NCBI RefSeq assembly: GCF_003432035.1 | Contig: NZ_QOHO01000019.1 | Location: 1-64,000, forward strand | Direction: 5' to 3' | Length of the DNA: 64,000 nucleotides | Source of the DNA: Lacrimispora amygdalina | Lineage (GTDB): Bacteria > Bacillota > Clostridia > Lachnospirales > Lachnospiraceae | In this document: in pieces, positions 32,615 through 49,965 of the stretch | Layout of the letters: each line of letters begins with the position of its first letter | Numbering within the stretch: position 1 is the stretch's first letter | Made by a program: the position numbers and the translations under genes | The notes under the pieces: generated by a model | Databases searched by the model: none | What the model was told of the DNA's origin: nothing | The model's input: the letters and a program-made list of their open reading frames with translations, nothing else

Positions 32615-33646
32615 TTATCCAAGGACAATCATGTTCTTATCCTGACGTGAAATTACAGAGGCAACCTTAGAGCTTACTATACTTAAATCAGCCAAATCCT
32701 TTAATAACCCTTCCGTATCCCGGGGATCTACACTAAGCAGCAGACCTCCTGAAGTCTGAGGATCAAATAATATTTCCTGCATAGGTTGAGATACCTGTTC
32801 AAACCGCAGTTTGTCCTGCAAAAACTTCCGGTTTTTCTTACCTCCGCCCGTAATCAGATATTCCTCCGCCAAGCGGTACGCTTCTTTTATATAAGGAATT
32901 TCTGAGCATTCTACCTGAATGGTATATTCATCTGTAACCATTTCATTTAAATGTCCTAAAAAGCCAAATCCAGTCACATCTGTACAAGCGTGCAGCCGAT
33001 ATTTTTTTCCTGCATCTGCCGCATACTTATTTAGTGTCTGCATGCTGTTTACCGCCTGCTCATAGCTTTCCAGGGAGGCTTCTCCAGCTTTATAGGAGGA
33101 TGTTACAAGTCCCACTCCCAGGGGCTTGGTAAGTATGATATCATCACCTATACAGCAGGAATTGTTTCTCATGATTTTCCGGGGATGGACAATCCCTGTC
33201 ACAGAAAGACCATATTTGGGTTCCTTATCCGTAATGGAATGTCCTCCGCAGAGAACCCCTCCTGCTTCTTTTACCTTTTCGGCTCCTCCCCTAAGAATCT
33301 CACCTAATATAGCCGGGTCTTCATCCTCAGGAAAGCAGACAATATTAAGGGCAACCTTAACTTCTCCACCCATTGCATAAATATCACTTAATGCATTCGC
33401 TGCCGCAATTTTTCCAAATAAATAAGGATCCTCCACCATAGGAGGGAAAAAATCAAGAGTCTGAATAATCGCCAGATCATCTGCCAGGCGATAGACTGCC
33501 CCATCATCAGAAGTATCAAATCCCACAATAAGATTCTGGTCGTCAAAAAGAGGTATGTTTAATAACGCTTCTTTTAACATACCCTGAGGCAGTTTAGCAA
33601 TACATCCTCCACAAGAGGTAAACTTATTAATCTTACGTATGTCCAT
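32615..33646 (-). CDS. selD: Selenide, water dikinase SelD
   Basis: SelD makes selenophosphate from selenide and ATP, for selenocysteine, 2-selenouridine or the labile selenium cofactor of molybdenum hydroxylases. The 343-residue protein carries the catalytic region FTSCGGCIAKL (Cys12, Cys15, Lys18). The Sec/Cys position is Cys, so no recoding is needed. Also seen are GFDTSDDGAVYRL, the metal/ATP motif GGHSITDKEPKYGLSVTG, and the ending FDPQTSGGLLLSV. It is the first gene of the operon and has a recognisable promoter and palindrome. Confidence 0.95.
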   Translation of the reverse strand: MDIRKINKFTSCGGCIAKLPQGMLKEALLNIPLFDDQNLIVGFDTSDDGAVYRLADDLAIIQTLDFFPPMVEDPYLFGKIAAANALSDIYAMGGEVKVALNIVCFPEDEDPAILGEILRGGAEKVKEAGGVLCGGHSITDKEPKYGLSVTGIVHPRKIMRNNSCCIGDDIILTKPLGVGLVTSSYKAGEASLESYEQAVNSMQTLNKYAADAGKKYRLHACTDVTGFGFLGHLNEMVTDEYTIQVECSEIPYIKEAYRLAEEYLITGGGKKNRKFLQDKLRFEQVSQPMQEILFDPQTSGGLLLSVDPRDTEGLLKDLADLSIVSSKVASVISRQDKNMIVLG

Positions 33647-33919: not shown

Positions 33920-34675
33920 TTACACTTTTAATGCTGCTCCAATTGCTCCTGCATAGCGGGACAAATGAGAAACATTTACGGGACATCCGGTTTGCAATTC
34001 CAGCTCTTTACGAATTCCTTCCATTTGTGCCAGCCCTCCGGTTAAAAGAATGGGAGACTCTGTCCCGATTCTTCCTGCCAGTGCCATCACTCTTGTCACC
34101 ACGGACTGAATAATTCCTCCGGCGATTTCCTCACGGGTTTTCCCTGCTGCCAGCAATGATACGATTTCTGAATCGGCAAAAACTGCGCACATACTGCTTA
34201 GAGTACAACATTTTCCTTCGGTTAACAGCTTTTGAAAATCAGACAAATCCACTCCCATGCGGTGAGCAGACATCTCAAGAAATCTTCCTGTCCCGGCGGC
34301 ACATTTATCATTCATTTGAAAGGACAGCACCTTACCATTTTCCACCGAAATCACCTTGGAGTCCTGGCCTCCAATATCAATGATTGTGCGAACCCCCTGC
34401 AAAAGGTAATCTGCCCCTGACGCATGGCAGGTAATCTCTGTTATTTTTTTATGAGCAAAGTCAATTCCCACTCTTCCGTATCCAGTTGCTCCCACTCGTA
34501 TTTCATGTTCCTTTGTTTCTGTCTGTTCCAGAAGCTCCCGAAAGACGGTTCTGGCAGTTTCTTTTGGGTTCCAGCCTGTGGGTTTTACGCAGACTGCGGC
34601 AATGGAATCTTCTTTTAACAGGACTCCCTTGCAGGCGGCTGATCCACAGTCAATTCCTACTGATATCTGTTTCAT
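33920..34675 (-). CDS. Acyl-CoA dehydratase activase / double-cubane reductase ATPase
   Basis: This 251-residue ATPase belongs to the BadF/BadG/HgdC family of archerases that drive low-potential electron transfer by ATP hydrolysis. It begins MKQISVGIDCGSAACKGVLL (phosphate-1 loop). DIGGQDSKVI and FQMNDKCAAGTGRFLEM (cluster-binding Cys), then CAVFADSEIVSLLA (second Cys), are diagnostic. It lies 3 bases downstream of the double-cubane protein gene, its partner. It is one of the shorter, single-domain versions. Confidence 0.93.
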   Translation of the reverse strand: MKQISVGIDCGSAACKGVLLKEDSIAAVCVKPTGWNPKETARTVFRELLEQTETKEHEIRVGATGYGRVGIDFAHKKITEITCHASGADYLLQGVRTIIDIGGQDSKVISVENGKVLSFQMNDKCAAGTGRFLEMSAHRMGVDLSDFQKLLTEGKCCTLSSMCAVFADSEIVSLLAAGKTREEIAGGIIQSVVTRVMALAGRIGTESPILLTGGLAQMEGIRKELELQTGCPVNVSHLSRYAGAIGAALKV

Positions 34676-34678
34676 TGT

Positions 34679-35836
34679 TTACAACATCTCCACAAACGCA
34701 CCGGCTCTTGTTGAAAGCTGTCCGATATCTGCTGTTCCATAATCTGTTTCTAATTGGAGGTAAGGAATGTTTTTCTCTTTTAAAAATGTCTTTACGGTAT
34801 GAGATTCTACCGCATATGTATGACACGCCTGAAGAGTCATTTCCACTACCCCATCCACATGGAACTGTTCACACAGCCTTCCTAACAGTTCAAACCGGTT
34901 CGGATTGGGTGTCATAATGGAGCAGCCAATCTGCAGGTAGTGCTCTGCAATGTTGGTGATCGGATCTCCTTCTTCCAAACACTGCCGATCCATCTGCTTG
35001 GCTCCGGTACAGTTTTCATAAGCAACGACTACACCGCCTGCTTCTTCAATAACTTTAACCACCTTCTCCGTTACTCCTCCCATGGGGCATCCGGTGATGA
35101 GAATCCGGGGGGCATCTATAGATACCGGCCGTTCTCCTGCTTCATAGTCTGACTTTATTTGATTGATTGCATTTTGGATTTCTTCTGTTTTTTCCTTCCA
35201 GTCAAATTTAAACTGAGAACCAAATAGAATCTGAAGCTGGCGCAGACCCGTAATCGGAGGGGGACACAAGGTGCTTAACTCATACAGCTCTTTTAGAAGT
35301 CTCCGTTCTTCGTTGCGTTTATGAATGGCGTCTCTCAGCATATCATCGGTAATTGTGACACCAAAGTCTTTTTCTACCCGCTCTTTTAAGCGGACAATTT
35401 CTGACCGCCAAAGTGCCTTTGATTCCGGGGTAAACTGATTGCGGGGAAGCTGTAAAATATGTAAATTTTTCTTCTTGGCCAGCAGTTCATACATCTTTAC
35501 CTTGCCGTCACAGGTTGTTTCTCCTACCACCAGATCTGCAAAATACATATAAGGACATTTATCCGTAACTGCAAAGCCATAGCTTGATTTAATGAGCGGA
35601 CACAGATTGCCTGGCAGATCTTTTTCCGCATCAGGTATTGTCTCGTCACTGGTGGAACAAAGGCTTACGGATACCAGCCCCGCCGCCATGAATATCTCAA
35701 GAGGTGTGTAAGTACAAAACTGTCCCACCACTCCCTTGCCTGAATCTTTAATTCTCTTTACTGCAAGAAACCCGTTTTTTCTGGCCTCAGCAAAACTATC
35801 AAATACCTGGGGCAGTTCCTTTTTCATCTCTATCAT
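34679..35836 (-). CDS. Double-cubane-cluster anaerobic reductase (2-hydroxyacyl-CoA dehydratase-like)
   Basis: This 385-residue protein resembles the HgdB/YjiM-type family, members of which carry an [8Fe-9S] double-cubane cluster and take electrons from the activase next door. Cysteines appear at expected places: GQFCTYTPLEIFMAAG, LPGNLCPLIKSSYG, DKCPYMYFADLVVGETTC, and TLQACHTYAVE. It differs from true CoA dehydratases, which need two such subunits. The substrate of this class is not established. Start ATG 35836 has AAAGGAG 7 bases upstream. A polar amino acid ABC importer lies just upstream on the same strand. Confidence 0.88.
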   Translation of the reverse strand: MIEMKKELPQVFDSFAEARKNGFLAVKRIKDSGKGVVGQFCTYTPLEIFMAAGLVSVSLCSTSDETIPDAEKDLPGNLCPLIKSSYGFAVTDKCPYMYFADLVVGETTCDGKVKMYELLAKKKNLHILQLPRNQFTPESKALWRSEIVRLKERVEKDFGVTITDDMLRDAIHKRNEERRLLKELYELSTLCPPPITGLRQLQILFGSQFKFDWKEKTEEIQNAINQIKSDYEAGERPVSIDAPRILITGCPMGGVTEKVVKVIEEAGGVVVAYENCTGAKQMDRQCLEEGDPITNIAEHYLQIGCSIMTPNPNRFELLGRLCEQFHVDGVVEMTLQACHTYAVESHTVKTFLKEKNIPYLQLETDYGTADIGQLSTRAGAFVEML

Positions 35837-35888: not shown

Positions 35889-36626
35889 TTATTTCAGATT
35901 ATAATCCAGAAAACGTTTCACTCTCTCATCTTCCGGGTTATCCAGTATCTCCTTTGGTGTCCCATCCGCAATGATGGTACCCTCTGCCATAAACAGGATT
36001 CTGGTGGCTATCCTCCGTGCAAACATAATCTCATGAGTAACAAGAATCATGGTAGAGCCATCTTCCGCTACTTTCTGAATGGTGTTTAACACCTCTCCTA
36101 CCAGCTCCGGGTCCAGCGCTGAGGTAGGTTCATCCAATAACAGCACCTCCGGATTAACAGCCAGAGCCCTGGCTATGCCTACCCGCTGCTGCTGGCCTCC
36201 GGAAAGCCTGGAAGGGAAAAAATCCTTCCGTTCCAGCATTCCAACCTTATCAAGCAGCCTTAAACTGATTTCCTGTGCTTCTTTTTTACTTTTTCCAGCC
36301 ACGGTTATCAAGGCTTCCATAATATTCTCAATGGCTGTTTTATTTTTGAATAAATTATAATTCTGAAAAACCATGGCAGAATGACTTCTCAGCTCCATAA
36401 TCTCTTTTTTAGAATGTTTCTTTGCATCAATCGAATGGCTGCCGATGCGGATGATTCCACCGGTTGGCTTTGTTAAATAGTTCAGGCACCGGAGCAATGT
36501 TGATTTTCCGGTTCCCGAGGGACCTAGTATCGCTACAATCTCACCTTTGTCAATGGATATATTAATATCTTTTAGAATATCTGTCTCTCCGTCAAACGAC
36601 TTCCATAAATGACTTATTTCAATCAT
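35889..36626 (-). CDS. Polar amino acid ABC importer ATP-binding protein
   Basis: This 245-residue ATPase of the GlnQ/HisP type has Walker A GPSGTGKSTLLRCLNYL, the signature [19 protein letters not shown], Walker B LLLDEPTSALDPELVGEVL, and the His switch VTHEIMFARRIA. It powers the importer formed with the TTG-started permease and the lipoprotein upstream. It lies 21 bases after the binding-protein gene and 52 bases before the double-cubane gene. Confidence 0.94.
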   Translation of the reverse strand: MIEISHLWKSFDGETDILKDINISIDKGEIVAILGPSGTGKSTLLRCLNYLTKPTGGIIRIGSHSIDAKKHSKKEIMELRSHSAMVFQNYNLFKNKTAIENIMEALITVAGKSKKEAQEISLRLLDKVGMLERKDFFPSRLSGGQQQRVGIARALAVNPEVLLLDEPTSALDPELVGEVLNTIQKVAEDGSTMILVTHEIMFARRIATRILFMAEGTIIADGTPKEILDNPEDERVKRFLDYNLK

Positions 36627-36647
36627 TTTCAGTACCTTTCCATCTGC

Positions 36648-37520
36648 TTATTCGTGTATCATCTTTGTCATATCGGAATACATCCATTTCGTAACAATTT
36701 TTGAAGTGGTTCCATCCTCCATCATTTTATCAAGTACCTGATTAACTTCCTCACAAAGCTCATTTCCTTTGTCATTTTTTTGAAAATAATAGGCCACGTT
36801 ATTGGCTAACAGTCTGTTATCCAGAATATGAAACTTCATGTTTTGAGTCTTTTCATATTTATGTACCAGGCTGTCTGTGGTAGCCATGGCATCGATCCGC
36901 TTTAGATACAGATCCTGATATCCGGTATCACTTGTTTCATAAACGACTACGTTCCAACCATATGTATCTGCCATTTTTTCCACAGACACCTGAGAGGCCT
37001 GCCCCTGTGTCACTCCAATAGTGACGTCTTTCAATGCTTCAAAAGTGTTGACATCTGACTTATCTTCGTTGACAATCACACACTGGGCATCACCATAATA
37101 TGGATGAGACGTGGTATACTTGTCCATTCTGGCTTTTGTAGTTGCAAAACAATTTGCTGCCACGTCTACACGTCCGGCATCCAGTTCGCCAAATAAAGAG
37201 GAAAATTCTGTCTGCTTAACTTCAATATCCCACCCAGTACGTTTTGCAATCTCACTCCACATCTCTGCATCAATTCCGGTCCAATCTTTTCCATCACTGC
37301 TCAGCAGACTGTAGGGCTCTCCTGTGCCTCCGGTAGCAATAATAACTTTACGCTTCCCTGCAGTACTCTCATTTGAACTGCTTTCTGCCACTGTGGCTTC
37401 TGATTTTACGCTTTCTTCTGCTGATTTCTTTCCATCTGCTGCTTTGGAAACAGCCTGACTGCTGCAACCAGAAAGGGTCACTGCCACAGCAGTGAAGAGA
37501 ATCGGTATCATTTTTTTCAT
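36648..37520 (-). CDS. Polar amino acid-binding lipoprotein
   Basis: This 290-residue SBP_bac_3 protein captures an amino acid or related solute. I choose ATG 37520, which gives a lipoprotein signal MKKMIPILFTAVAVTLSGCS with the lipid-modified Cys at about 19. The longer reading would add 16 residues from the upstream gene. GGAGG lies just upstream. A Ser/Glu/Lys linker (22-52) precedes the domain starting RKVIIATGGTGEPYS. The ligand is unknown. The order permease-SBP-ATPase is normal for this family. Confidence 0.92.
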   Translation of the reverse strand: MKKMIPILFTAVAVTLSGCSSQAVSKAADGKKSAEESVKSEATVAESSSNESTAGKRKVIIATGGTGEPYSLLSSDGKDWTGIDAEMWSEIAKRTGWDIEVKQTEFSSLFGELDAGRVDVAANCFATTKARMDKYTTSHPYYGDAQCVIVNEDKSDVNTFEALKDVTIGVTQGQASQVSVEKMADTYGWNVVVYETSDTGYQDLYLKRIDAMATTDSLVHKYEKTQNMKFHILDNRLLANNVAYYFQKNDKGNELCEEVNQVLDKMMEDGTTSKIVTKWMYSDMTKMIHE

Positions 37521-37549
37521 TTCCATTTCCTCCCAATTTAAATTCATCA

Positions 37550-38212
37550 TTAGTACATTTCCATGCATTTTCTATCCATAATCTTATGAAGATGAGAAAA
37601 TCCCAGCACTAAAAGCCAGTAAATAATCATGACCGCCAGATAAATCTCAAAGTAACGAAAGGACTGCGCGCCCTCGCTCTTGGCCTGCCCCATGATATCT
37701 CTGACACCAAGCATGAATGCAAGAGATGTGGCTTTTAAAAGATTAATCAAATCATTAAACAGTGCCGGCAATGAAACACGAAATGCCTGAGGCAGAACGA
37801 TTCTTCTGATTGTCTGAAGTTCTGACATGCCTAACATAGCGGCGGCTTCCTTCTGACCTGAATCAACCGAAAGAAGGGCTCCCCGAATGCTTTCTGACAT
37901 AAAGGCACCGGTATTCAGACTTAAAACCAATGCCACTGCCGTCAACGGCTTCATGTTCAGAATAATTTCACTGACCCGCGCCAGTCCATAGTAAAAAAAA
38001 TATAGCTGGGCCACCAGAGGAGTCCCTCTTAATATCGACAAATAAAAACGGGTAATCGGATAAAAAATCCTGATCTTGTAATATGCGATCACTGCTATTG
38101 TAACGCCAATGATAATGGAAAAAACGGCAGCCGTCAGGGTCAGCAAAAGCGTCACCTGTAATTTTGATGCAATAATTGGAAATACGCTAAAAAAATAAGA
38201 TAAGTCAAACAA
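37550..38212 (-). CDS. Polar amino acid ABC importer permease
   Basis: This 220-residue HisM/GlnP-type membrane subunit has about five hydrophobic segments and the EAA loop GQKEAAAMLGMSELQTIRRIVL. Family signature: YLSILRGTPLVAQLYFFYYG. The start is TTG at 38210-38212 (first residues MFDLSYFF), supported by AAGGAG 8 bases upstream; no ATG fits. The 3' end runs past the SBP ribosome site, so the genes are coupled. Confidence 0.92.
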   Translation of the reverse strand: MFDLSYFFSVFPIIASKLQVTLLLTLTAAVFSIIIGVTIAVIAYYKIRIFYPITRFYLSILRGTPLVAQLYFFYYGLARVSEIILNMKPLTAVALVLSLNTGAFMSESIRGALLSVDSGQKEAAAMLGMSELQTIRRIVLPQAFRVSLPALFNDLINLLKATSLAFMLGVRDIMGQAKSEGAQSFRYFEIYLAVMIIYWLLVLGFSHLHKIMDRKCMEMY

Positions 38213-38409: not shown

Positions 38410-38976
38410 TTACCCGCGGGTAACTTCTGATTTGTGCCCCTCTTCGTCGAGAAACAACAGCTCGTAATATTTTTTTGGCCGCCCTTTGCTGTTGTCCCGT
38501 TTTTCAAATACCGTTTGTACGTATTTTTTTTCTTCGATTTTGTTAAGGATACGGTTTGCACCTCTGACGGTGATGGACAGGCATTGGGCAACATCCTCTG
38601 AGGATAATTTATTTGTTCTCATAATTTCTGCATAGGATATAATTCTCTGTAAATTGATGTTGTTTATTCCCATACGTTTGATGGTCTCCTTTATGGTCTC
38701 TTTCACGTTTTCCAAAGTGGGCCGTATTAAGATGTACCTTACCCCGTGCTTTTTAAGTTCAGGAACAAAGTGGCCAAACGCCGTGATGGACAGGTCTGTT
38801 TTCTTCTCTTCCCACAAAGTTATATGGTTTTCCAGCATTGTTTCCACCCGTTCCAGCAGATCGCCGCTGTCAACAGGCTTTCCTTCATGAGTCAGATATT
38901 TTTGGAATTCACTGAAAGAATCGATAACATATGCATGGCAGGCAGCCAATCCCGAAGTCTGGAAAACAAAATTCAT
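38410..38976 (-). pseudogene. N-terminally truncated helix-turn-helix regulator
   Basis: This 188-residue frame carries a middle segment (LENHITLWEEKKTDLSITAF) and a C-terminal winged helix (NKLSSEDVAQCLSITVRGAN, RGRPKKYYELL-like end). Similar regulators I recall are clearly longer at the N terminus. The frame begins where the oppositely oriented crotonase fragment starts, so the 5' part seems lost. The remaining DNA-binding half could still be expressed. No confident ribosome site was seen before its ATG. Confidence 0.55.
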
Positions 38977-39382
38977 GGATTGGCCGAAGAAACGTAAACT
39001 GGAAATGTATCAGGAATCGTTGAGAATGATTGAAAATATGATCTTTTGTATAGACATCCCCACAATTGGGGCGATTAATGGATCAGGATCACATTGGCAA
39101 ATGGGAACATTATGCGATATTACAATTTGTGCTGAAGGTACAGACTTTTTTGATGCTCATTACCTGGGCGGTGTATCTCCTGGTGATGGAATCGTCTTAA
39201 CACTTCAGAATTTAACAGGCATCAAAAGAGCTGCATTTTGCGCATATACCGGTAGGAATATGAATTCCCAGACGGCATTAGACCTGGGTATAGTCAGTGA
39301 AGTACTGCCGAATGAAAAGCTTCTTACACGCGCCTGGGAACTCGCAGAGATGATAATGCAGGGAGCCGTTGCAAATAAGTAA
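38975..39382 (+). pseudogene. Crotonase (enoyl-CoA hydratase family) fragment
   Basis: This 135-residue frame matches the middle of crotonase-fold proteins: LRMIENMIFCIDIPTIGAIN, then CDITICAEGTDFFDAHYLGG, VSPGDGIVL and ALDLGIVSEVLPNEKLLTRA. Complete members are about 250-280 residues, so both the first 60-80 residues, with the first oxyanion-hole strand, and the C-terminal helices are missing. The 5' end abuts the truncated regulator and the 3' end runs into a long hairpin. It is a non-functional remnant. Confidence 0.75.
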
Positions 39383-39415: not shown

Positions 39416-40411
39416 TTATGATCTTCGTGTTAAAAAATTCCATGTCGTTTCCGGCACCAGTCTTTGCACGTCCTGGAACCTGCCTTTCCTGACAGCTTCT
39501 CTGACTCTCGAAGCGCTGATGACTTCTTCTCCCTGTGTTTTTCGTTCAATTTCTATGACTTCTATACCATACTCAGGAAGAATCTGTTTCATTGCTGTAT
39601 TATAAGAGCCGGTTACCCTGCATATAGGCTCTGTTCCTGCAAAGCGTCTGGTTATGCTAAGAGGAGGGGCAATCTTTTGTGCAAACAGTTCCAAATCAAA
39701 TTCACAATTGGCTTCATTGGCAAACACTTTTTCTTTCAAATAATAAGTGGGAAAAGTGGCAGCAGAAACCATATAATCAGACGCCTGATGAACAATGACT
39801 CTCTTTAAATCTTCCGTTCCCTTTAAAACCATCTGATATCGGTCTTTCGCGCTGTAAAAGGTCCGCTTATCCGATAATACAAACACATGCAAATAGTCAC
39901 ACTGCTTCAAAGCTTCTTCTATTAAATACCGGTGTCCAAGTGTAAACGGATTACAGTTGGCTACAACAGCGCCAACTATTTTCCCATAATCTTTGGCATC
40001 GATTGGTGTTATTTTCTGTATTGCCTGTATGAATTTTTCAAATCCCTGTTTTTCATTCTCCATAAACAATACAGATTTTGTACGGAACACGGTATAAAAT
40101 CCTAAACTTTTAAACATTTCCTCATTCTTTGGTTTTGTATATAGGACAAGCCTGCTTCTTCCATGCTCAAACTCATACTGAATCAGCTGGGAAACCACGC
40201 TGCCGGATAATCCTTCTCCAAGATGAAGAGGATCCACTGCAATGCACTTTAACACATTCTCTTCCACGGAACCTGCTGCAATGATTTTGTAATCATCATC
40301 AAGTACACACGCACTATATTCAATCCCCTCATCATAATTAAGATCCTGACCGGCTAAAAATTGTTTTAATTCTTCCAGTGCACGGCCCTGAAACGGTCTT
40401 CCTTCCAGCAT
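39416..40411 (-). CDS. citC: [Citrate (pro-3S)-lyase] ligase
   Basis: CitC acetylates the prosthetic group of CitD to make the lyase active. I choose ATG 40411 (MLEGRPFQGRALEELKQF, 331 residues) downstream of AGCAGG and 10 bases after citG. A GNAT-like N-terminal half is followed by a nucleotidyltransferase domain with VGAVVANCNPFTLGHRYLIE (TLGH motif) and ASRVREAVRKG. It is the last gene of the operon. Confidence 0.93.
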   Translation of the reverse strand: MLEGRPFQGRALEELKQFLAGQDLNYDEGIEYSACVLDDDYKIIAAGSVEENVLKCIAVDPLHLGEGLSGSVVSQLIQYEFEHGRSRLVLYTKPKNEEMFKSLGFYTVFRTKSVLFMENEKQGFEKFIQAIQKITPIDAKDYGKIVGAVVANCNPFTLGHRYLIEEALKQCDYLHVFVLSDKRTFYSAKDRYQMVLKGTEDLKRVIVHQASDYMVSAATFPTYYLKEKVFANEANCEFDLELFAQKIAPPLSITRRFAGTEPICRVTGSYNTAMKQILPEYGIEVIEIERKTQGEEVISASRVREAVRKGRFQDVQRLVPETTWNFLTRRS

Positions 40412-40421
40412 AGTTACCTGC

Positions 40422-41312
40422 TCACTTTCCTGCCCAGGCCTCCTCAATTTCAGATAAAAAGATAGCGGCCGCCAGCAAATCGGCACACCCGCCGCTGCTA
40501 TAATTTTTGTGAATAAAATAGGTGTCCAGCTTTGTCAGCTCCTCTATTGCACCTTTGGAATAGGCACCGCCCGAGAGCAAAAACTCCTTTGACAGCTTCT
40601 GCACTTCCTTAAGCCCCTCACTCTTGCACCTGGACAGGATATTTCCATCCTCCACCTGACTCATCAGGGTAAACAGCGCCTGGATTTTCACCAGATTCCA
40701 GTTCCTTCCTTCTTTCTTTCCCTGTCTTATAACCGGTAAAGCCAGGTTTATGACTGAAGGATAACCATCTGCCGCCTCTCCCCTGATTCCTCTGGAGCCA
40801 TAAGTACATAAATTCTTTTTGCCATGGGTATCTCCGCTGTTCTGGATCTGAATCAGGTCAAGTTCATTTAATAAAATATTCTTAACCATTTTTTGTTCCT
40901 GCACAATCAGACTGCTGATGGACACCTGACCATACTTTTTATAACAGATTCCAGCAGCCGCACATAAGATACCCATGGTGAACACGGCTCCTTTATGGGT
41001 ATTGATCTGTCCAGTTGCTTCATACATCGCCTCTTCCGCCTGAATACCAATTTGCCGGATCTTCAGAAAGCAGCCTTCTGGTTTTTCAGACATCTGAATC
41101 CCTGTTTCGGCGAATTTCCAGAAATATGGGATCAGAGCATCTGCACTTCTCTGAAAAGTAAGCAGATTCATATCCCGATGAGCTCCATTACTCAATGAAT
41201 CCACCAGTCCCGGCTTTGGAGCTGTATCAACTTCCTCTAACAGTGCCAGTCCCGCCATATTCCCCAGCCAGACGGTATAATTTTCCCATTTCTTCTTATC
41301 TGTTTCTATCAT
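40422..41312 (-). CDS. citG: Triphosphoribosyl-dephospho-CoA synthase
   Basis: CitG makes the precursor of the acyl-carrier prosthetic group. This 296-residue protein has family motifs TAPKPGLVDSLSNGAHRDMN, INTHKGAVFTMGILCAAAGI, and DTHGKKNLCTYGSRGIRGEA. Its start (ATG 41312) directly follows the citF stop as TAGATG, with no clear ribosome site, so translation is coupled. A separate citX gene was not found in the window. Confidence 0.93.
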   Translation of the reverse strand: MIETDKKKWENYTVWLGNMAGLALLEEVDTAPKPGLVDSLSNGAHRDMNLLTFQRSADALIPYFWKFAETGIQMSEKPEGCFLKIRQIGIQAEEAMYEATGQINTHKGAVFTMGILCAAAGICYKKYGQVSISSLIVQEQKMVKNILLNELDLIQIQNSGDTHGKKNLCTYGSRGIRGEAADGYPSVINLALPVIRQGKKEGRNWNLVKIQALFTLMSQVEDGNILSRCKSEGLKEVQKLSKEFLLSGGAYSKGAIEELTKLDTYFIHKNYSSGGCADLLAAAIFLSEIEEAWAGK

Positions 41313-42875
41313 CTAATTATCAGCAAAGGTATATTCTTTCACCTTGCGTACTACATCTAATATGGTTCCATCACGGCTTTCGATAATACCCACAACCTTA
41401 TCATCAAATTCCACTTTTTCAGGTTCTCCTGCTATGGAATAGGCAATATCACGGAGTTCCTCAATTGTTTTAAAAGGAAGATCGACTCCTTTCATGCAGT
41501 CAATTAAATCCTGCCGCTTCGGATTGATGGCAATTCCATAATCAGTCACTACTACATCAATACTTTCCCCCGGAGTGGTCACCGCAGTAACTTCCGTGCA
41601 GACAGCCGGAATTCTCCCCTGTAACAGAGGAACGATGACTATGGCACACTTGGCACCGGCAGCAGTGTCCGGATGGCCTCCCTGTGCTCCGGTTATCTCT
41701 CCGTCTGATCCAACCACTACATTGCAGTTGAAATTCACATCTACTTCAAGAGCAGCCAGTATAACAAAATCCAGTTTATTGACAACCGCACCTTTATTAA
41801 AGGGATTTGCATATTCTCCGGCAGAAATACGGAAGTGTTTCAAATCTTTTACCGACTCTACTGCATCAAGATCAAAATCCTGGGTATCCAGAAGACAGTC
41901 TACCTGATTATTTGCTAACAGATCACACATCGGCTTCGTCAGACCCCCAACACCGAAACGCATGCGGATGTTGCGTTCCTTCATGATTTTAGCAAGTGAA
42001 ATAGTAGAAGCAATGGATGCACCTCCCACACCGGTCTGATAAGAAAATCCATCTTTAAAATATGGAGTATTTACAACAAACCGGGTGCAGTAATCAGCCA
42101 TCATCAGCTTTCTCATATCGGTGGTGGGTTTTGCAGCACCTGTGGCAATTTTTTCCGGATTTCCAATGGCATCTACCACCACTACATAATCAACTTTTGT
42201 CATGCTGATATGTGCAGGAAAATTGGGGAAAGGTACCAGGCAGTCTGTAATTGCTACGACCTGATCCGCATAATCTCCATCTACAAGTGCATAAGAAAGT
42301 ACACCGCAGTTACTCTTGCCTCCGATTCCCCGGCAATTGCCGTAATCGTCGCAGGTAGGTGCGCCGATAAATGCAATGTCAATTCTGGTTTCTCCGCTTT
42401 CAATGGCACGGACACGGCCTCCATGAGAACGCATGATAGCCAATCCTTTTAATTTACCCGAGGAAATTGCCTGTCCGATTTTTCCTCTGACTCCGGAGGA
42501 CTGGATATTCGTTATGGTTCCATCTTCAATATATGGAACAATTGGGTCGTGGGCTTTCCCAAGGGAGCTGGCACAAATGGTGATATCTTTAATCCCCAGC
42601 CGGTGTACCTCTTCCATTACCATATTAACGATGTAGTCGCCTTCCCGGAAGTGATGATGAAAGCCAAGAGTCATACCGTCTTTTATGTTGCATTTAATCA
42701 GTACATCATGAATACTGTCTGCTAATTTACTCTTTGTATTATCACTCACGCATCTGGTTACCGGACCATCCTTTTTATAAGTATATCCGTCTCTGTAGTG
42801 AATACCCTGGAATACTTCCTTTCCAGTGGCTTTTAGAATTTCATCCGGGATATCCCTTCCTACTGCATTTATCAT
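41313..42875 (-). CDS. citF: Citrate lyase-type alpha subunit (CoA-transferase)
   Basis: This 520-residue subunit swaps the acetyl group on the carrier protein for the hydroxy acid substrate. I choose ATG 42875 (MINAVGRDIPDEILKATG), just after GGGGGATTTG and the citE stop. Landmarks are MTLGFHHHFREGDYIVNMVM, IGAPTCDDYGNCRG, and EITGAQGGHPDTAAGAKC. It may act on citrate or on a related hydroxy acid such as citramalate. Neighbours are citE and citG. Confidence 0.92.
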   Translation of the reverse strand: MINAVGRDIPDEILKATGKEVFQGIHYRDGYTYKKDGPVTRCVSDNTKSKLADSIHDVLIKCNIKDGMTLGFHHHFREGDYIVNMVMEEVHRLGIKDITICASSLGKAHDPIVPYIEDGTITNIQSSGVRGKIGQAISSGKLKGLAIMRSHGGRVRAIESGETRIDIAFIGAPTCDDYGNCRGIGGKSNCGVLSYALVDGDYADQVVAITDCLVPFPNFPAHISMTKVDYVVVVDAIGNPEKIATGAAKPTTDMRKLMMADYCTRFVVNTPYFKDGFSYQTGVGGASIASTISLAKIMKERNIRMRFGVGGLTKPMCDLLANNQVDCLLDTQDFDLDAVESVKDLKHFRISAGEYANPFNKGAVVNKLDFVILAALEVDVNFNCNVVVGSDGEITGAQGGHPDTAAGAKCAIVIVPLLQGRIPAVCTEVTAVTTPGESIDVVVTDYGIAINPKRQDLIDCMKGVDLPFKTIEELRDIAYSIAGEPEKVEFDDKVVGIIESRDGTILDVVRKVKEYTFADN

Positions 42876-42876
42876 T

Positions 42877-43779
42877 TTACAAATCCCCCTTATATACGCC
42901 CGACGCTTTAGCCATATAAATGGTACGTATTGCACCGTCATAAAATGCGATATCTATCATTTTTCCGTCAACGGTAAATACACCGATTCCCTTTGCCTTC
43001 TTATCATCTATTTCTTTTACTACCTTTTCTGCAAAGATAATGTCCTTAAGCGTCGGTGTGAATATTTCATGTACGATGCTGATCTGTCTTGGATTTATAA
43101 TTGATTTTCCGTCAAATCCCATCAAATGAATAGATTCAACTTCTTTGCGGAAGCCTTCCATATCATTTAGATTGGTATACACGGTATCAAAGCACTGGAC
43201 ACCAGCCGCTCTTGCTGCTATGATCATGTTCTGCCTTGCACCCATGAGTTCCAGACCGGTTCCGGTAATATGTGTCTGTAAATCTTTGGTGTAATCACCG
43301 CCGGAAAGGGCGATGCCAAAAAGTCTTTCTGAGGACTCACAGATCTCAAGAACCTTCATTACTCCCCTGGCTGATTCAATGGCTGCCATGATAAGAGTTT
43401 TTCCTTCCGGAATATGAAACTCTTTTTCTGCTGCAGCCACAGCTTCCTCAACCAGCTTCACATCCTCAGCCCGTTCCGTTTTTGGTATCCGGATGGAATC
43501 GCATCCGCCTGCTACCGCACAGCGGATATCTTCCTTCCAATAAGGGGTATCCAGAGCATTGATGCGGACCACCCGTTCACACCCGTGGTAATTTATTTCT
43601 TTCAGTGCATGATAAAGGGAAAAACGTGCAGCATCCTTTTGGTTTTCGGCCACTGCATCCTCTAAATCCAGCATAATGGAATCCGGCTTATAAATATAGG
43701 GATCTTTGATTAAACCCGGCTTCTGGGCATTTAAAAACATCATGGTTCTTCTTAATCGTTTCTTTTCCGGATTCCTCAT
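42877..43779 (-). CDS. citE: Citrate lyase-type beta subunit
   Basis: This 300-residue protein is the aldol-cleaving subunit (CitE/HpcH-aldolase family). I choose ATG 43779 (MRNPEKKRLRRTMMFLNAQK), overlapping citD by 4 bases (ATGA) after GGGGAGGAGC. The active-site region shows DSIMLDLEDAVAENQKDAAR and AAIESARGVMKVLEI, then ALSGGDYTKDLQ. It splits acyl-carrier hydroxy acid into a 2-oxoacid and acetyl-carrier. Confidence 0.93.
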   Translation of the reverse strand: MRNPEKKRLRRTMMFLNAQKPGLIKDPYIYKPDSIMLDLEDAVAENQKDAARFSLYHALKEINYHGCERVVRINALDTPYWKEDIRCAVAGGCDSIRIPKTERAEDVKLVEEAVAAAEKEFHIPEGKTLIMAAIESARGVMKVLEICESSERLFGIALSGGDYTKDLQTHITGTGLELMGARQNMIIAARAAGVQCFDTVYTNLNDMEGFRKEVESIHLMGFDGKSIINPRQISIVHEIFTPTLKDIIFAEKVVKEIDDKKAKGIGVFTVDGKMIDIAFYDGAIRTIYMAKASGVYKGDL

Positions 43780-44075
43780 CGAACAGCTCCTCCCCATGGA
43801 AGATTATCAAATTGCCCGGCAGAACGGAACAGTGCCCCTTCCACACGCGCTTTTATTGTACAATCCAGTGCTCCTTTGTCTACGATAGAGATTTTCACCT
43901 GACCGACTTCCAGATTTTTAAGCGTTTCCATCACAACCTTTTTTATCTGATTACCATACTGGTTGATAACCACACTTTCCAGGTTAAATTCTATGCCATT
44001 ATTGCAAGGTTCTACCGTAACCTGGCAGTCGCTGGATTCCAGTGTTCCGGCCATTGCCGGCTGCACGATTTCCAT
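43776..44075 (-). CDS. citD: Citrate lyase acyl carrier protein (gamma subunit)
   Basis: This 99-residue protein starts MEIVQPAMAGTLESSDCQVT. Ser14 in LESSD is the site for the 2'-(5''-phosphoribosyl)-3'-dephospho-CoA group. The length is normal. It overlaps citE by 4 bases and follows the hydratase gene by 13 bases. Confidence 0.94.
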   Translation of the reverse strand: MEIVQPAMAGTLESSDCQVTVEPCNNGIEFNLESVVINQYGNQIKKVVMETLKNLEVGQVKISIVDKGALDCTIKARVEGALFRSAGQFDNLPWGGAVR

Positions 44076-44088
44076 ATCGTTCCTCCTC

Positions 44089-46383
44089 TTATTTCCGTTT
44101 TCTGTTGTAATTGATTAAGCTTCCTGCCTTTACAATCTCACGTTCTTCCTGTGTCATATCCGTGATATATAAATGAATTTCTTCGGCTGAATCTTTTTTT
44201 ATCACATATGCTTTGATATCTGACATATTACCGCTTTCCAATGCAGTGCGTACTCCGGGGACAAAAATATAATCGCCTGTCTCGAATTCCGGTTCATCCT
44301 TCATCTGAAACGGCAGCATTCCCCAGTTCATTACATTAGAACGATAGCGTTTTGTTGCATATTCTCTGGTTATGTTTGCAAGTCCGCCAATGACTCTCTG
44401 ACAGCTGGCCGCCTGTTCTCTGGCTGAACCATCTCCCGGCTTGATTGCATAAATCATACTTCCGATTTCCGTATCAGCTATTTCAATCGATTCCATACCA
44501 GGTATTTTCTTAATTGTATCATAAATCTTTATAAGCTCTGGTTCTAATTCTGCCGGAGATTTTCCTGCAGTTCTTGCTTTTTCCAGACGGTCGGCACATT
44601 TACTTCTTTCCACATAAGCCGGATCTCTTCTGGATAAGGTAAATTCAGCAAGTCCCAATGGATTGGAGCGGTAAGAAGCGGTTTCACCGGAAGGAATCAA
44701 CTCATCTGTAGTTGTAACCTCATCCATAATCTTAGAACACACTTTTAAAAGAATGTTCTCTGTCAAGGCACTCATTTCAGGCCAGTCTTTAATATTGGGT
44801 CCGCATACCAGCTCTTTCTCTTTTTGTTCCTGATTAAATCCCTGGTATATTCTCTTTTTATATACAGTGCCGTCAAACTGATAATCCGGTATATTTTCCC
44901 AGCAGTCAAACGCTTCTGCAGAGGTAAGCACACCTCCATTTGCTGCAGTAGCTGCAATGGAACGTGCATCCATCAGTGCAACGGCTGCCATCTGACCATT
45001 TCCAGGCTTTGAGCCTTCCCGGTTGGGGAAGTTTCTGGTGGTGTGGCGGATACTCAGCCCGTTATGAGCAGGGGTATCACCGGCTCCAAAGCACGGTCCG
45101 CAGAACGCAGTCTTTAACACGGCTCCAGCTTCCATTAAGTCTGTTACAGCACCTTTCCGTACCAGATCCATGTAAACCGGCTGTGATGACGGATAAACTG
45201 ACAGGGAAAACTCACCATAGCCGCAGTCTTTTCCCTTCAGAGCATTCGCAGCTTCGATGACATTCGTATAATTGCCTCCGGCGCATCCGGCTATAATTCC
45301 CTGCTGAACCTGAAGCTTTCCATTGACAATTTTATCAGTCAGCGTAAATCCAGCCCGTCCCTTACTTACTTTTTCCGCCTCTATCTCTACCAGCCGCAGG
45401 ATATCGCCCAGATTTTCATTCAGCTCATCAATTTCATATGTATTGCTGGGATGAAATGGCAGCGCAATCATTGGCTTTACTGTACTTAAATCCACATAAA
45501 CGCAGCCATCATAATAAGCTGCAGCTGCAGGTTTTAATTCCTGATAATCCGCCTCTCTGCCATGGGCTGTCAAATAACTTCTTGTATCCTCATCCGTACT
45601 CCATATGGAGCTTAAGCAGGTAGTTTCTGTTGTCATTACATCAATGCCATTACGGAAATCCGTACTCATGGAGGCAATGCCCGGTCCCACAAATTCCATC
45701 ACTTTATTTTTCACATAACCATTTTTAAACACTGCTCCGATAATTGCCAGCGCAATATCCTGAGGGCCTGCTCCCGGATTTGGCTTTCCAGTCAGATAGA
45801 CGGCAATAATATCAGGATAATCAAGATCGTAGGTATCGGAAAGGAGTTGTTTCACCAGCTCACCGCCGCCCTCTCCGATTGCCATGGTTCCTAATGCACC
45901 ATACCGCGTATGGGAATCTGATCCTAATATCATCTGACCTCCGCCTGCGTGCATTTCCCTCATATACTGATGAATCACCGCAATATGGGGGGGAACATAA
46001 ATGCCTCCATACTTTTGCGCTGCAGACAAACCAAACACATGATCATCTTCATTAATGGTACCTCCAACTGCACACAGAGAATTGTGGCAGTTGGTCAGTA
46101 CGTAAGGAATCGGAAATTTCTCCATTCCAGATGCTTTGGCAGTCTGGATGACTCCTACAAAAGTAAGATCATGGGAGGTCATGGCATCAAATTTAATTTT
46201 TAAATGAGACATATCATCAGAAGTGTTATGCTGTTTTAAAATGCCATAGGAAATTGTCCCCTTTTTTGCTTCTTCCCGGTCTGCAGGGGCCCCTGTTACG
46301 GCCCCCGCTTTCGAGTATTCTTCTTCTGGAACAATCTCCCTTTCATTGATCAGATACACACCACTGTCATAAAGTTTTACCAC
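44089..46383 (-). CDS. Divergent aconitase-family hydratase
   Basis: This 764-residue protein has the aconitase fold: [34 protein letters not shown] near the N terminus, and [15 protein letters not shown] around residue 430. The usual GSCTN cluster motif is replaced by GCAGGNYTN near 364-372. The normal substrate-binding SxNRNFxGR segment reads [14 protein letters not shown]. It therefore resembles the YbhJ-type branch, whose reactions are not well known, more than housekeeping AcnA/B. It likely adds or removes water from an unsaturated di- or tricarboxylate supplied by the adjacent isomerase. Three possible cluster cysteines remain. Confidence 0.83.
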
Positions 46384-46431
46384 GTCTATATCCTCCTGCT
46401 TTTAACAATTAAGCTTTTTCATCATTTCCGG

Positions 46432-47574
46432 TCAGCAATATGTAAATCCCTCCAGTAAAAGATTTGCAGTCCTGAATCCAAATGTATCTTCCACAACTGT
46501 TTCATTTCCTTCTACATGAAAATCAACACCAGCTTCCAAAATGCCGCCCGCATGACCGATACGGATAAATTTCGTATCTGCTCCCGGTCTTAAAACCTGA
46601 TTTACCACACTGCCTGGAATAATGGCAGCCGCCGCTGTGCACATGGCACCAGTCATGGCGTAAGTGGGATGAGTCTTCTGCATTGACATCATACGTGATA
46701 ATAGATCTATGCTGTCCCCCTTTATAGTCCGGCCTGAGGTGGTCTCATACTCATCCGGTTCTGCAACAAACGTCATTTTAGGAACTCCCGGCATCTCCCA
46801 GGCTGATTTCTTATAGTCGGTTATTAATCCCATTTTAACAGCTGCCAGGCCTCTTACCGTCTCTAAAAGATCCAGTTTTTTCTGGTCAGAATCAAGTTCC
46901 TTTGGAAGTTCTTTCCCTGTCAGCCCTAAGTCAGAGGCCTTTACAAATACCAGGGGATTGGCTGCATCTACAATGGATACTTCAACCTGGCCAATGTCTG
47001 GAACTTCCAGCACATCTACAGCATTTCCTGTTGGCAGAAGCTTTCCTGAAACACTTCCTGCAGGGTCCAGAAACTTCAGCTTAACAGGAGAACCCGTTCC
47101 AGGAACTCCGGCAATGGCAAAATCACCATCGTATTTAACTGCTCCGTTTTTTACTTCCACTTCTTCTTCAATAATTTTTCCGGTGTTTGTATTAAACACT
47201 TTAACAGTTGTCACCGGCTCTGTGATTTTTACAAGCCCCTGTTCGATTGCAAACGGCCCGACTCCTGAAGAAATATTACCACAGTTGCCCTTATAGCTTA
47301 CCAGCGGTTTATCCACAGATACCTGTGCAAAGGTGTAATCCACATCTGCATCCTCTCGTTTGGATACTCCTATGATCGCAACTTTACTGGTAACAGAAGC
47401 CGCACCTCCCAGCCCATTAATCTGCTTTATATCGGGGCTTCCCATGATTCTCATGAGAAGCTCATTTCTTGCCTGTTCATCCGGGGGAAGATAATTTTCC
47501 AGTATATATACGCCTTTACTGGTACCTCCCCGCAGTATGGAACAGGGAATTCTTTTTCTATGCTGATCTAACAT
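46432..47574 (-). CDS. PrpF-family cis-trans isomerase (2-methylaconitate/aconitate isomerase-like)
   Basis: This 380-residue protein matches the PrpF family, diaminopimelate epimerase-like enzymes that move a double bond or isomerise 2-methylaconitate or aconitate. I choose ATG 47574 (MLDQHRKRIPCSILRGGTSK), after GGAGGAAG. Landmarks include GNCGNISSGVGPFAIEQGL and QKTHPTYAMTGAMCTAAAAI. It lies 48 bases upstream of the hydratase gene and 14 bases after the carrier gene. In this context a cis/trans or delta isomerase activity on aconitate-like acids is more likely than propionate metabolism, since prpB/C/D are absent. Confidence 0.85.
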   Translation of the reverse strand: MLDQHRKRIPCSILRGGTSKGVYILENYLPPDEQARNELLMRIMGSPDIKQINGLGGAASVTSKVAIIGVSKREDADVDYTFAQVSVDKPLVSYKGNCGNISSGVGPFAIEQGLVKITEPVTTVKVFNTNTGKIIEEEVEVKNGAVKYDGDFAIAGVPGTGSPVKLKFLDPAGSVSGKLLPTGNAVDVLEVPDIGQVEVSIVDAANPLVFVKASDLGLTGKELPKELDSDQKKLDLLETVRGLAAVKMGLITDYKKSAWEMPGVPKMTFVAEPDEYETTSGRTIKGDSIDLLSRMMSMQKTHPTYAMTGAMCTAAAAIIPGSVVNQVLRPGADTKFIRIGHAGGILEAGVDFHVEGNETVVEDTFGFRTANLLLEGFTYC

Positions 47575-47588
47575 TAAACTTCCTCCAT

Positions 47589-48863
47589 TTAACAAATAAT
47601 TCCATAAATTCCGATTGTTGCTAAAATAGCATTTGCTACTACACATACCAGTGCAATGATAAACAGCTGGCCAAAAAGTTTATTCTGCTCCTGATCCTTA
47701 TTCTCAGAATTTGATGCTGTCATGTATGCGGCCAGAATCAGTCCGCCACCGGTGGATGCCGGGCTGAACGCGGCTGATAAAGAGGAAGTAATTACAACAC
47801 TGGCTAACTCTGCAAATCCGGCATTACCAGTTCCTAATGACTGGACAATCGGTCCAACGGTAGGAATCATGGAAGGCATTACCACACCGGTAGTAGAACT
47901 GAAGAATGATAAAATAGAAGAAGTTACACCGATAATCGGTGCGGCTGTCTTTGGTGTCATGATAGATAAAAGTCCCTTAGACATCAGATCCAGTCCACCC
48001 AGTTCTATAACAACGTTCATCAGTACACCTACACCGCAGATCAGAATAAGGGTTCCCCATGGTACCTTTACCAAAGCTTTCTTTTCATCCGTTACGCCCA
48101 ATATTACTAATACTGCTGCTGCAAAAAAGGAAGCAAGACCTACATTGATATCTAAACCTACAACCATAACAACCATGGCCAGAACACCAAGGATTGTAAT
48201 CCACTGCTGTTTATTGAGATGCTCTTTCACTTCCAGTGATGTATTTTTTTTATCTGCAGGTTTAATCTTCCAAATCTTATAATAAATGGAGAATCCTATC
48301 ATCAGAATTGTTGCCCATATAATACAATTCCACATAACCGGAAGCTCGAATCCGGTAAAACCGGCTTCTGTTCCTAATTTCTCCATTAATACTCCAGGAG
48401 GTGTCAGAGGAGATAAGGTAAAACCATTTGCCGCTACTTTGGCAGCCAGTGCAAACAACAGAGGATTTTCTCCCATGCTGACCGCAACAGTCACTGCAAC
48501 GACAGTCATTAAGTTTCCTACCGGAATATTACCTGGTCCAATAATAGTCAGAATACCAGATACCAGAAAAATGATAATTGGTACCAGATAAGTTCTCTTA
48601 CCTGCAAGTCCGATTCCCTTTTTCGCAACAAGTTCCAACGTACCGTTCACCTGCGCAACACTAAACAGAAACGATACGCCCACAAGTGTAATAAAAAGTT
48701 TTGCATCAAAACCAGCCAGTACCTTACTGTCACTCAAGCCCCCCATCCTTGCCAGAATCAATGCTGATCCGATTGCCAAAACACCAATATTGCATTTTTT
48801 TACAAATCCAATTGCCACTACTACAAACAAAAATATAATAGATATAATATTTATGTAGTTCAT
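47589..48863 (-). CDS. Anion (di/tricarboxylate) carrier, MatC/SLC13-like
   Basis: This 424-residue membrane protein has about eleven hydrophobic segments, the start MNYINIISIIFLFVVVAIGF, and motifs GPGNIPVGNLMTVVAV and SFFSSTTGVVMPSMIPTVGP, typical of ion-transporter (IT) superfamily carboxylate carriers such as MatC. It is the first gene of the operon and probably brings in the substrate of the isomerase, hydratase and lyase. Specificity is unknown. Confidence 0.87.
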   Translation of the reverse strand: MNYINIISIIFLFVVVAIGFVKKCNIGVLAIGSALILARMGGLSDSKVLAGFDAKLFITLVGVSFLFSVAQVNGTLELVAKKGIGLAGKRTYLVPIIIFLVSGILTIIGPGNIPVGNLMTVVAVTVAVSMGENPLLFALAAKVAANGFTLSPLTPPGVLMEKLGTEAGFTGFELPVMWNCIIWATILMIGFSIYYKIWKIKPADKKNTSLEVKEHLNKQQWITILGVLAMVVMVVGLDINVGLASFFAAAVLVILGVTDEKKALVKVPWGTLILICGVGVLMNVVIELGGLDLMSKGLLSIMTPKTAAPIIGVTSSILSFFSSTTGVVMPSMIPTVGPIVQSLGTGNAGFAELASVVITSSLSAAFSPASTGGGLILAAYMTASNSENKDQEQNKLFGQLFIIALVCVVANAILATIGIYGIIC

Positions 48864-48982: not shown

Positions 48983-49009
48983 AAAATTATAGTTTTCAGC
49001 TATAATTTT
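48983..49009. promoter_or_regulatory. LysR-type inverted repeat in the cit divergent region
   Basis: AAAATTATAG and CTATAATTTT form a perfect 10-base inverted repeat with a 7-base centre. It lies 47 bases before the LysR start. T-N11-A pairs can be drawn within it, as expected for a LysR site. A second GTTACC/GGTAAC repeat lies at about 48899-48956. Clear promoters could not be chosen in this region (48864-49056). Confidence 0.65.
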
Positions 49010-49056: not shown

Positions 49057-49965
49057 ATGGATTTTAAAGATTTGAATTATGTATTAGCTGTTGCCAAGCA
49101 TCAGAATATAACCAAAGCTGCTAATTCCTTATATATTTCCCAGCCTACGCTTACAAAATTCCTGCAAAGCCTGGAAAGCAGCCTTGGACAGAGACTGTTT
49201 AAAAAAATCGGAAACCGTTTCATACTTACTTATGCCGGAGAGAGATACGTAAAAAAAGCCGGGGAAATTCTCCAGCTGAAAAAAGAATTAGACAATGAAC
49301 TGTCAGACATTATTAAAAGCAATATCGGTGTATTAAACATTGCTTTTCCTGTTATGCGTGGAACCTACATGCTTCCGTGTACGCTCCCTATCTTCCGGAG
49401 CCTGTATCCAAATGTGATTATTAATATTAAGGAATCCGCTTCAGCTACCCTGGAGAATATGATTCTTTCCGGTGAGACAGACCTGGCGTTTTTTAACAAA
49501 CCCGTGAAAAGCGCAGATGTAGAATATGAAGTAATCAGTCATGAAGAGATGCTTCTGATCATGTCAGTTAATCATCCTCTGGCAGATCAGGGCATAACGA
49601 AAGAGGGATGTACCCGTCAATGGTATGACTTATCACTCCTGCAGGACGAACGTTTCATTCTTCAGGAAACTAACCAGCGTTCACGCCAGACGGTAGACCG
49701 TGTTTTTCAGCAGATCGGATTTCAGCCCAATAAGATGATGATTACAAGCAATATCAGAGCCGGCGCAGAGTTGGTTTCAAAAAACTACGGTGTTGCCTTT
49801 GTTACTGATACACACTTAAAACATATGAATTTCCTTGATAAGCTGGCGTGTTTTTCCTTTGGTACACCTAATACAATGGTTGATTTTGTGGCCGCTTACC
49901 GTAAAGGATCGTATCTGAATTACCATGCAAACGAATATATAAAAATTGTGAAAGAATTTACTTAA
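49057..49965 (+). CDS. LysR-family regulator, divergent from the cit-like operon
   Basis: This 302-residue protein has the LysR helix-turn-helix (MDFKDLNYVLAVAKHQNITK, then SLYISQPTLTKFLQSLESSL) and a C-terminal effector domain. The divergent arrangement with the carrier-isomerase-hydratase-lyase operon is classical for a LysR activator whose ligand is the pathway substrate or an intermediate. The start has a GAGGTGAT ribosome site. An inverted repeat with LysR features lies in the shared upstream region. Confidence 0.93.
   Translation: MDFKDLNYVLAVAKHQNITKAANSLYISQPTLTKFLQSLESSLGQRLFKKIGNRFILTYAGERYVKKAGEILQLKKELDNELSDIIKSNIGVLNIAFPVMRGTYMLPCTLPIFRSLYPNVIINIKESASATLENMILSGETDLAFFNKPVKSADVEYEVISHEEMLLIMSVNHPLADQGITKEGCTRQWYDLSLLQDERFILQETNQRSRQTVDRVFQQIGFQPNKMMITSNIRAGAELVSKNYGVAFVTDTHLKHMNFLDKLACFSFGTPNTMVDFVAAYRKGSYLNYHANEYIKIVKEFT

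Follow-up and report, generated by a model that had tools for sequence, protein, structure and literature searches.

A PrpF isomerase, YbhJ-family hydratase and citrate lyase operon in Lacrimispora amygdalina with a predicted role in the anaerobic fermentation of trans-aconitate

An operon that joins a PrpF-family isomerase and an aconitase-family hydratase to the genes of citrate lyase raises the question of which acid it serves to degrade. Such an operon spans positions 39416-48863, on the minus strand, of the stretch of Lacrimispora amygdalina DNA analyzed here, hereafter the window, which comprises 64,000 nucleotides and represents the first 64 kb of one contig (NZ_QOHO01000019.1) of a genome of 5.94 Mb in 174 contigs. 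An earlier interpretation made from the letters alone (the sequence-only reading) had offered two answers, namely trans-aconitate, degraded through citrate, and a mesaconate- or citraconate-type acid, degraded through citramalate. Comparative sequence analysis favors the first of these, and the operon is probably a catabolic unit for the anaerobic fermentation of trans-aconitate. The chemistry is known, and the arrangement of the genes that would carry it out is new.

The sequence-only reading had named eight genes running in one direction with short gaps or overlaps. Profile matches recovered all of them on the minus strand in the order given, carrier-prpF-hydratase-citD-citE-citF-citG-citC, and a divergently transcribed LysR gene was found outside the interval that had been considered. 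The features of the locus are as follows:

47589-48863, minus strand: MatC/CitMHS-type carrier, predicted trans-aconitate importer (MatC_N PF07158, 1.3e-25; CitMHS PF03600, 7.2e-24)
46432-47646, possible start 47574, minus strand: PrpF-family isomerase, predicted aconitate isomerase (PF04303, 8.4e-136)
44089-46383, minus strand: YbhJ-family Fe-S hydratase, predicted citrate-forming aconitase (PF00330, 3.1e-90; NF008503, 1393.5 bits)
43776-44075, minus strand: citD, citrate lyase acyl carrier (gamma) subunit (TIGR01608, 112.9 bits, cut-off 63.5)
42877-43797, minus strand: citE, citrate lyase beta subunit (TIGR01588, 355 bits, below the equivalog cut-off of 443.4)
41313-42941, possible start 42875, minus strand: citF, citrate lyase alpha subunit (TIGR01584, 660 bits, cut-off 501)
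40422-41312, minus strand: citG, triphosphoribosyl-dephospho-CoA synthase (TIGR03125, 279.5 bits, cut-off 272.3)
39416-40486, possible start 40411, minus strand: citC, citrate lyase ligase (TIGR00124, 333 bits, cut-off 262)
49057-49965, plus strand: LysR-type gene transcribed divergently, predicted regulator of the operon (PF00126, PF03466)
48989-49003, no strand assigned: ATAG-N7-CTAT palindrome in the LysR/carrier intergenic region, kept in close relatives, candidate regulator site

No intergenic gap within the operon exceeds 48 bp. The longest open reading frames overlap at carrier/prpF, citE/citF and citG/citC, and these overlaps would disappear if the internal ATGs that are present at 47574 (prpF), 42875 (citF) and 40411 (citC) were the true starts.

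As to the substrate, the direction of flux, the specificity of the carrier, the regulation and the fate of oxaloacetate, we infer the following scheme. The MatC-type carrier would import trans-aconitate, the PrpF-family enzyme would shift its double bond to give cis-aconitate, and the YbhJ-family hydratase would add water to yield citrate. CitDEF, activated by CitC and CitG together with CitX supplied from contig C95, would then split citrate into acetate and oxaloacetate, and the latter would be decarboxylated to pyruvate and fermented further. The genome encodes two membrane decarboxylases of the oxaloacetate decarboxylase (OAD)-beta type, which could act as the takers of oxaloacetate, and the divergent LysR protein would sense either the substrate or a product of the pathway.

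The hydratase is a full-length member of NF008503, the family of E. coli YbhJ, which it matches over positions 1-752 of the 753 in the profile (1393.5 bits against a cut-off of 641). The earlier description of it as a divergent aconitase holds as far as its sequence goes, but it belongs to a named family, has two further copies in the same genome and is 71% identical to YbhJ of E. coli; the notion of an unfamiliar enzyme was accordingly dropped. The two other NF008503-type copies are found on contigs C101 and C13, and are respectively 77% and 71% identical to the window copy. On C13, a citrate synthase gene (NF010635, 628 bits) precedes the hydratase copy by 3 bp, the pair spanning L008:9309-12956. 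The C101 copy heads a second hydratase-citD-E-F-G-C operon (L009:8145-16353) with its own divergent LysR gene; PrpF and the carrier were not found in the 20 kb read at this locus, the substrate of which is possibly isocitrate or cis-aconitate. In an alignment to pig aconitase (1aco), the window residues C367, C428, C431, D156, S157, H158, R450, R455, S653 and R655 match the aconitase set, the pig equivalents being the three cluster cysteines, Asp165, Ser166, His167, Arg447, Arg452, Ser642 and Arg644, and all of these are invariant in the window, C101 and C13 copies and in E. coli YbhJ. The hydratase is predicted to make citrate from cis-aconitate.

Three CitF genes are present in the genome, in the window and on contigs C101 and C95. 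The window operon encodes all three lyase subunits along with CitC and CitG, and its CitF, CitD, CitC and CitG exceed the respective NCBIfam cut-offs. The C95 locus combines citD-E-F-G-C with citX, a response regulator, a histidine kinase and a citMHS citrate:proton symporter, and neither PrpF nor the hydratase was found in the 16 kb read there; the CitF proteins of C95 and the window share 85% identity. The only copy of citX found in the genome lies at C95 and the gene is absent from the window operon. The contrast that the sequence-only reading had drawn with ordinary citrate loci does not apply throughout, in that the hydratase accompanies citDEF without an isomerase at C101 and in three genomes (G179, G269 and G339) of the class-wide sample described next.

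Methylaspartase (methylaspartate ammonia-lyase; PF05034) was used as the marker separating citramalate lyase from citrate lyase. It is encoded by 23 of the 391 sampled genomes of the class, while in the L. amygdalina genome, where four candidates were scored, no match was obtained. In the class sample 47 CitF loci are full-length, and 13 of these have methylaspartase within 6.4 kb; we infer that the lyases linked to it are citramalate lyases. A CitF tree of 50 rows, which remained from 68 extracted sequences after 18 duplicates or near-copies were dropped, places the window, C101, C95 and E. coli versions on one side and the 13 methylaspartase-linked rows, along with three unlinked ones, on the opposite side, with a Shimodaira-Hasegawa-like approximate likelihood ratio test (SH-aLRT) value of 97. 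The CitE tree recovers the same grouping.

The PrpF domain (PF04303) occurs once in this genome and is found in just 7 of the 391 genomes of the class sample. The window protein shows up to 93% identity to its nearest named relatives, which come from Lacrimispora and similar metagenome-assembled genomes, and it scores 235 bits against E. coli YbhH. The columns corresponding to the catalytic Lys and Cys of the SoPrpF and Mii active sites are invariant in all 88 rows of the PrpF alignment. The tree built from these rows, after five Lacrimispora near-copies were dropped, excludes TarA and TbrA, and its only aconitate-isomerizing reference is SoPrpF, which performs this reaction in vitro. It sets the window apart in a group that comprises 78 rows and has a support of 93, while Mii, the 3-methylitaconate isomerase (3g7k), groups with the relatives at loci L029, L030 and L032. 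Each of these three loci encodes an aconitase-domain protein of 420-450 amino acids without the C-terminal domain, and L029 additionally encodes a phosphoenolpyruvate (PEP)-mutase/isocitrate-lyase-family protein and a B12-binding protein, a gene set which we take to resemble the nicotinate pathway. E. coli YbhH sits on a very long branch, the placement of which is unsure.

The operon is real and conserved, and its gene content, order, family membership and paralogues are complemented by the recurrent association of its genes in other genomes. The best 80 of 185 PrpF relatives were kept and their neighbors scored within 8 kb, using identity thresholds of our own choosing. A LysR relative is present on either strand in 68 of the 80 loci, and on the same strand as PrpF the carrier is found in 71, the YbhJ-type hydratase in 40 and CitF in 17, with eight loci showing none of the last three. 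All 17 citF-bearing loci also possess the YbhJ-type hydratase. Flanks are shorter than 8 kb on one or both sides in 41 loci; the 39 with full flanks show LysR in 35, the carrier in 34, the hydratase in 22 and CitF in 15, and none of the last three in five. At least four gene orders are seen among the 17 loci that unite isomerase, hydratase and citF: carrier-PrpF-hydratase-cit in Lacrimispora, PrpF-carrier-hydratase-cit in Oribacterium and hydratase-PrpF-carrier-cit in L082 and L103, besides versions that include a TctC-type receptor gene, as in hydratase-TctC-PrpF-carrier-cit (L064) and hydratase-PrpF-TctC-carrier-cit (L050). A TctC-type gene lies at most 400 bp from PrpF in 12 of the 80 loci (the family was tested on three), and its presence beside PrpF fits a tricarboxylate substrate. 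A more distant Clostridia genome (L028, G168) combines PrpF and citFED with a different aconitase (PRK07229, 972 bits, cut-off 612). By comparison, PrpF and the carrier are present at each of the 15 loci that bear Synergistaceae, Synergistales or Fretibacterium titles, and neither hydratase nor citF was seen in these, several of which have short flanks.

When the presence of cit genes is mapped on the PrpF tree it requires seven changes, of which at least four are forced by well-supported branches; none of 500 shuffles came as low as seven, with short-flank loci counted as being without cit. From the lyase side, a YbhJ-type hydratase lies within 5 kb of at least five of the 47 full-length CitF matches in the class sample, a lower bound because just two hydratase candidates were scored per genome, and PrpF lies within 5 kb of two of them (the window and G168). 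It is possible, and we advance it tentatively as an idea nearly as probable as its contrary, that Clostridia of the gut and rumen have put together a self-contained trans-aconitate fermentation operon on repeated occasions, by joining citrate lyase and an aconitase of one or the other of two families to a single PrpF-LysR-carrier core. As an aside, a Haladaptatus PrpF-family gene (plasmid NZ_CP085305.1, 166056-167204) lies in the same match as tcuA, which encodes tricarballylate dehydrogenase.

Several observations weigh against trans-aconitate fermentation as the role of the operon. The window PrpF falls below the cut-offs of both the 2-methylaconitate isomerase prpF family (TIGR02334, 342 bits against 440.55) and the 4-oxalomesaconate tautomerase family (NF033377, 358 bits against 440), and among solved structures it comes closest to 3-methylitaconate isomerase (379 bits), with SoPrpF next (287 bits). 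CitE, with 355 bits, does not reach the TIGR01588 equivalog cut-off of 443.4. In the CitF tree the E. coli sequence is a long branch of odd composition, and the deepest split of the CitE tree is weak (support 71). A tree in which the window clade is constrained to join the methylaspartase side is worse by 32 log units, with a p-value of 0.052 in the approximately unbiased (AU) test, just above 0.05, such that a grouping of CitF with the methylaspartase-linked lyases is not formally rejected. The sequence-only reading had itself regarded neighborhoods elsewhere that lack the isomerase and hydratase as telling against it: while 17 of the 80 PrpF loci hold isomerase, hydratase and citF together, citF was not seen near PrpF in the other 63, and 24 of the 39 full-flank loci likewise show no citF. 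In two of the 17 triple loci (L041 and L050) the hydratase matches come in separate pieces, and the gene may be interrupted in these. At L050 (L050:5268-9969 and L050:14795-17009) the pieces lie about 2.4 kb apart and citE and citF are separated by about 2.2 kb, both of which are possible insertions.

The hydratase, too, presents difficulties, in that pig Gln72 and Ser643 are replaced by His71 and Ala654 in the window enzyme, and citrate synthase lies within 1.5 kb of just two of 30 YbhJ-family loci in the class sample. Gln72 and Ser643 bind substrate in the pig enzyme. The C13 copy also has His71 and Ala654, and since this citrate-synthase-linked version shares both substitutions and keeps the other active-site residues, the YbhJ family plausibly serves as an ordinary aconitase in this genome.

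Among the alternatives, it is unlikely that the operon is a broader tricarboxylate one serving mainly citrate, isocitrate or cis-aconitate, with PrpF merely rescuing trans-aconitate that happens to form or to be taken up. The sister operon on C101, with hydratase and citDEFGC but neither PrpF nor carrier, lends this idea some weight, as it implies that the hydratase-lyase module occurs without isomerization; nevertheless, C95 already supplies a citrate-type locus, the window operon adds exactly PrpF and the carrier to the C101 set, and no part varies less from relative to relative than PrpF-carrier-LysR.

The other option of the sequence-only reading, in which mesaconate or citraconate gives rise to citramalate, is disfavored. 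More generally, a C5-dicarboxylate operon, in which an itaconate-, mesaconate- or citraconate-type acid would be imported, isomerized by PrpF and converted by hydration into citramalate, which a citramalate lyase would cleave to acetate and pyruvate, appears quite unlikely. The 379-bit match to 3-methylitaconate isomerase, the 13 methylaspartase-linked CitF loci of the class sample, taken to encode citramalate lyases, and the borderline AU value for joining the window lyase to that group are all consistent with it, but methylaspartase was not found in this genome, the window CitF lies on the E. coli citrate-lyase side, and the hydratase is of the kind that follows citrate synthase here. A methylitaconate route of the Mii type is likewise rejected, or at least weakened, by the position of Mii in the other PrpF branch, by the aconitase-domain-only hydratases of the loci in that branch as opposed to the single-chain NF008503 protein of the window, and by the PEP-mutase/isocitrate-lyase-family protein that L029 has instead of citrate lyase. 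A substituted aconitate (methyl-, homo- or oxalo-type) as the PrpF substrate, with cleavage of the matching substituted citrate by the lyase, is very improbable: relatives of PrpF do process methylaconitate and 4-oxalomesaconate, going by the molecule names of structure entries, and the window PrpF is below the cut-offs of both named NCBIfam families, but no methylcitrate or gallate-pathway gene was found among the nine window proteins scanned against Pfam and NCBIfam, and CitF is close to that of the citrate-type C95 locus. The fermentation of trans-aconitate, by comparison, is supported by the paralogues, the conserved neighborhoods and the lyase trees, and appears to be the probable function of the operon.

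Around the operon, the form AT[AG]G-N7-CTAT of the palindrome is present in all eight aligned LysR/carrier intergenic regions (the window and L036-L042, all close relatives), and this candidate regulator site resembles LysR boxes. Promoter-like matches are no commoner than in shuffled sequence (26 versus 23.6) and terminator-like matches somewhat commoner (13 versus 8.2, standard deviation 2.9), and neither was used as evidence. One of these terminator-like matches, which as a class are only somewhat above shuffles, is a 7-pair stem at 39288-39267 on the minus strand, about 130 bp beyond the end of citC. A 135-residue crotonase-like stretch (38975-39382, plus strand) matches only the middle of enoyl-CoA hydratase models and is remnant-like. 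An amino-acid-type ATP-binding cassette (ABC) transporter (35889-38212, minus strand) is separated from citC by a regulator-like frame (38410-38976), and in L036, which bears the operon of Lacrimispora xylanisolvens DSM 3808, frames that resemble the transporter genes come directly after citC. Further along the minus strand are an acyl-CoA dehydratase activase adjoining a double-cubane-cluster reductase (33920-35836) and a selenium cluster (29809-33646) composed of YedF, a cysteine desulfurase/SclA-like protein, a selenium-associated LysR protein and SelD.

Some plants are rich in trans-aconitate, for which a content of 3.5-12.2% of the dry weight is quoted for three of them (PMC11495376). The chemistry of its anaerobic breakdown is known, and no assigned isomerase-hydratase-lyase gene set was found in the literature searched. 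Nor was any description of PrpF, hydratase and citrate lyase as one operon found in that literature, outside of which most subscription journals lay; the available portions of PMC2147049, which concerns the methylcitrate cycle, and of PMC13188880 contain nothing on such an operon. If the repeated assembly proposed above is true, the anaerobic breakdown of trans-aconitate would gain genes for its so far unassigned isomerase and hydratase steps. For Lachnospiraceae and Oscillospiraceae of the gut and rumen, the operon offers a marker by which to seek species that ferment trans-aconitate, with the 15 Synergistaceae-type loci sharing just its PrpF-carrier-LysR part.

Comparison with known systems helps place the locus. 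The ordinary citrate locus of the same genome on C95 shares citD-E-F-G-C of the same clade with the window, yet differs in its citX, regulator, kinase and citMHS genes and in the lack of PrpF and hydratase within 16 kb. In the nicotinate-fermentation module, a PrpF-family isomerase (Mii), a hydratase of the aconitase superfamily and a C-C lyase act one after another. The window parallels this series, but the L029 hydratase is of the aconitase-domain-only (LeuC/DmdA) type, its lyase is of the PEP-mutase/isocitrate-lyase family, and Mii falls in the other PrpF branch.

Acidaminococcus fermentans is reported to ferment trans-aconitate via citrate, oxaloacetate and pyruvate (PMC3035267), the same route as predicted here, and MatC carriers and aconitase genes are listed for it. 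Unlike in the window, its citrate lyase genes (Acfer_0408-0410) are far by locus number from the MatC and aconitase genes. Aconitate isomerase does not figure in the part of the gene table of that report that was covered; the genome itself was not searched for PrpF. Aconitate isomerases of the PrpF superfamily are nonetheless on record: SoPrpF interconverts cis- and trans-aconitate according to the accessible part of its description (PMC5690661), and TarA and TbrA are assigned this activity in the available part of another (PMC11495376). The TarRAB system of Bacillus velezensis, which along with TbrA of B. thuringiensis is covered in the same source, resembles the window in combining such an isomerase with a carrier and an adjoining regulator. 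However, its importer TarB is treated there as a member of the major facilitator superfamily (MFS), while the window carrier is a MatC_N/CitMHS protein with no MFS family among its Pfam matches. The product of TarRAB is the cis-aconitate of the tricarboxylic acid cycle, and the available text mentions no dedicated hydratase or citrate lyase (PMC11495376).

The E. coli ybhD/ybhHIJ locus resembles the window in possessing a divergent LysR regulator, the PrpF-like YbhH, an organic-acid carrier (YbhI) and the hydratase YbhJ. It differs in being without citrate lyase genes and in its carrier, which is of the divalent anion:sodium symporter (DASS) family TIGR00785; further, YbhH passes the 4-oxalomesaconate tautomerase cut-off (515 against 440), which the window PrpF does not. 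YbhD has been tied to L-malate use, and the main text of that report, as far as available, makes no mention of aconitate; ybhH is strongly upregulated in a ybhD deletion mutant (PMC9068703). The likeness to the window suggests a testable function for the uncharacterized ybhH, ybhI and ybhJ, and if the repeated-assembly proposal is true, this orphan E. coli set would be assigned to aconitate use.

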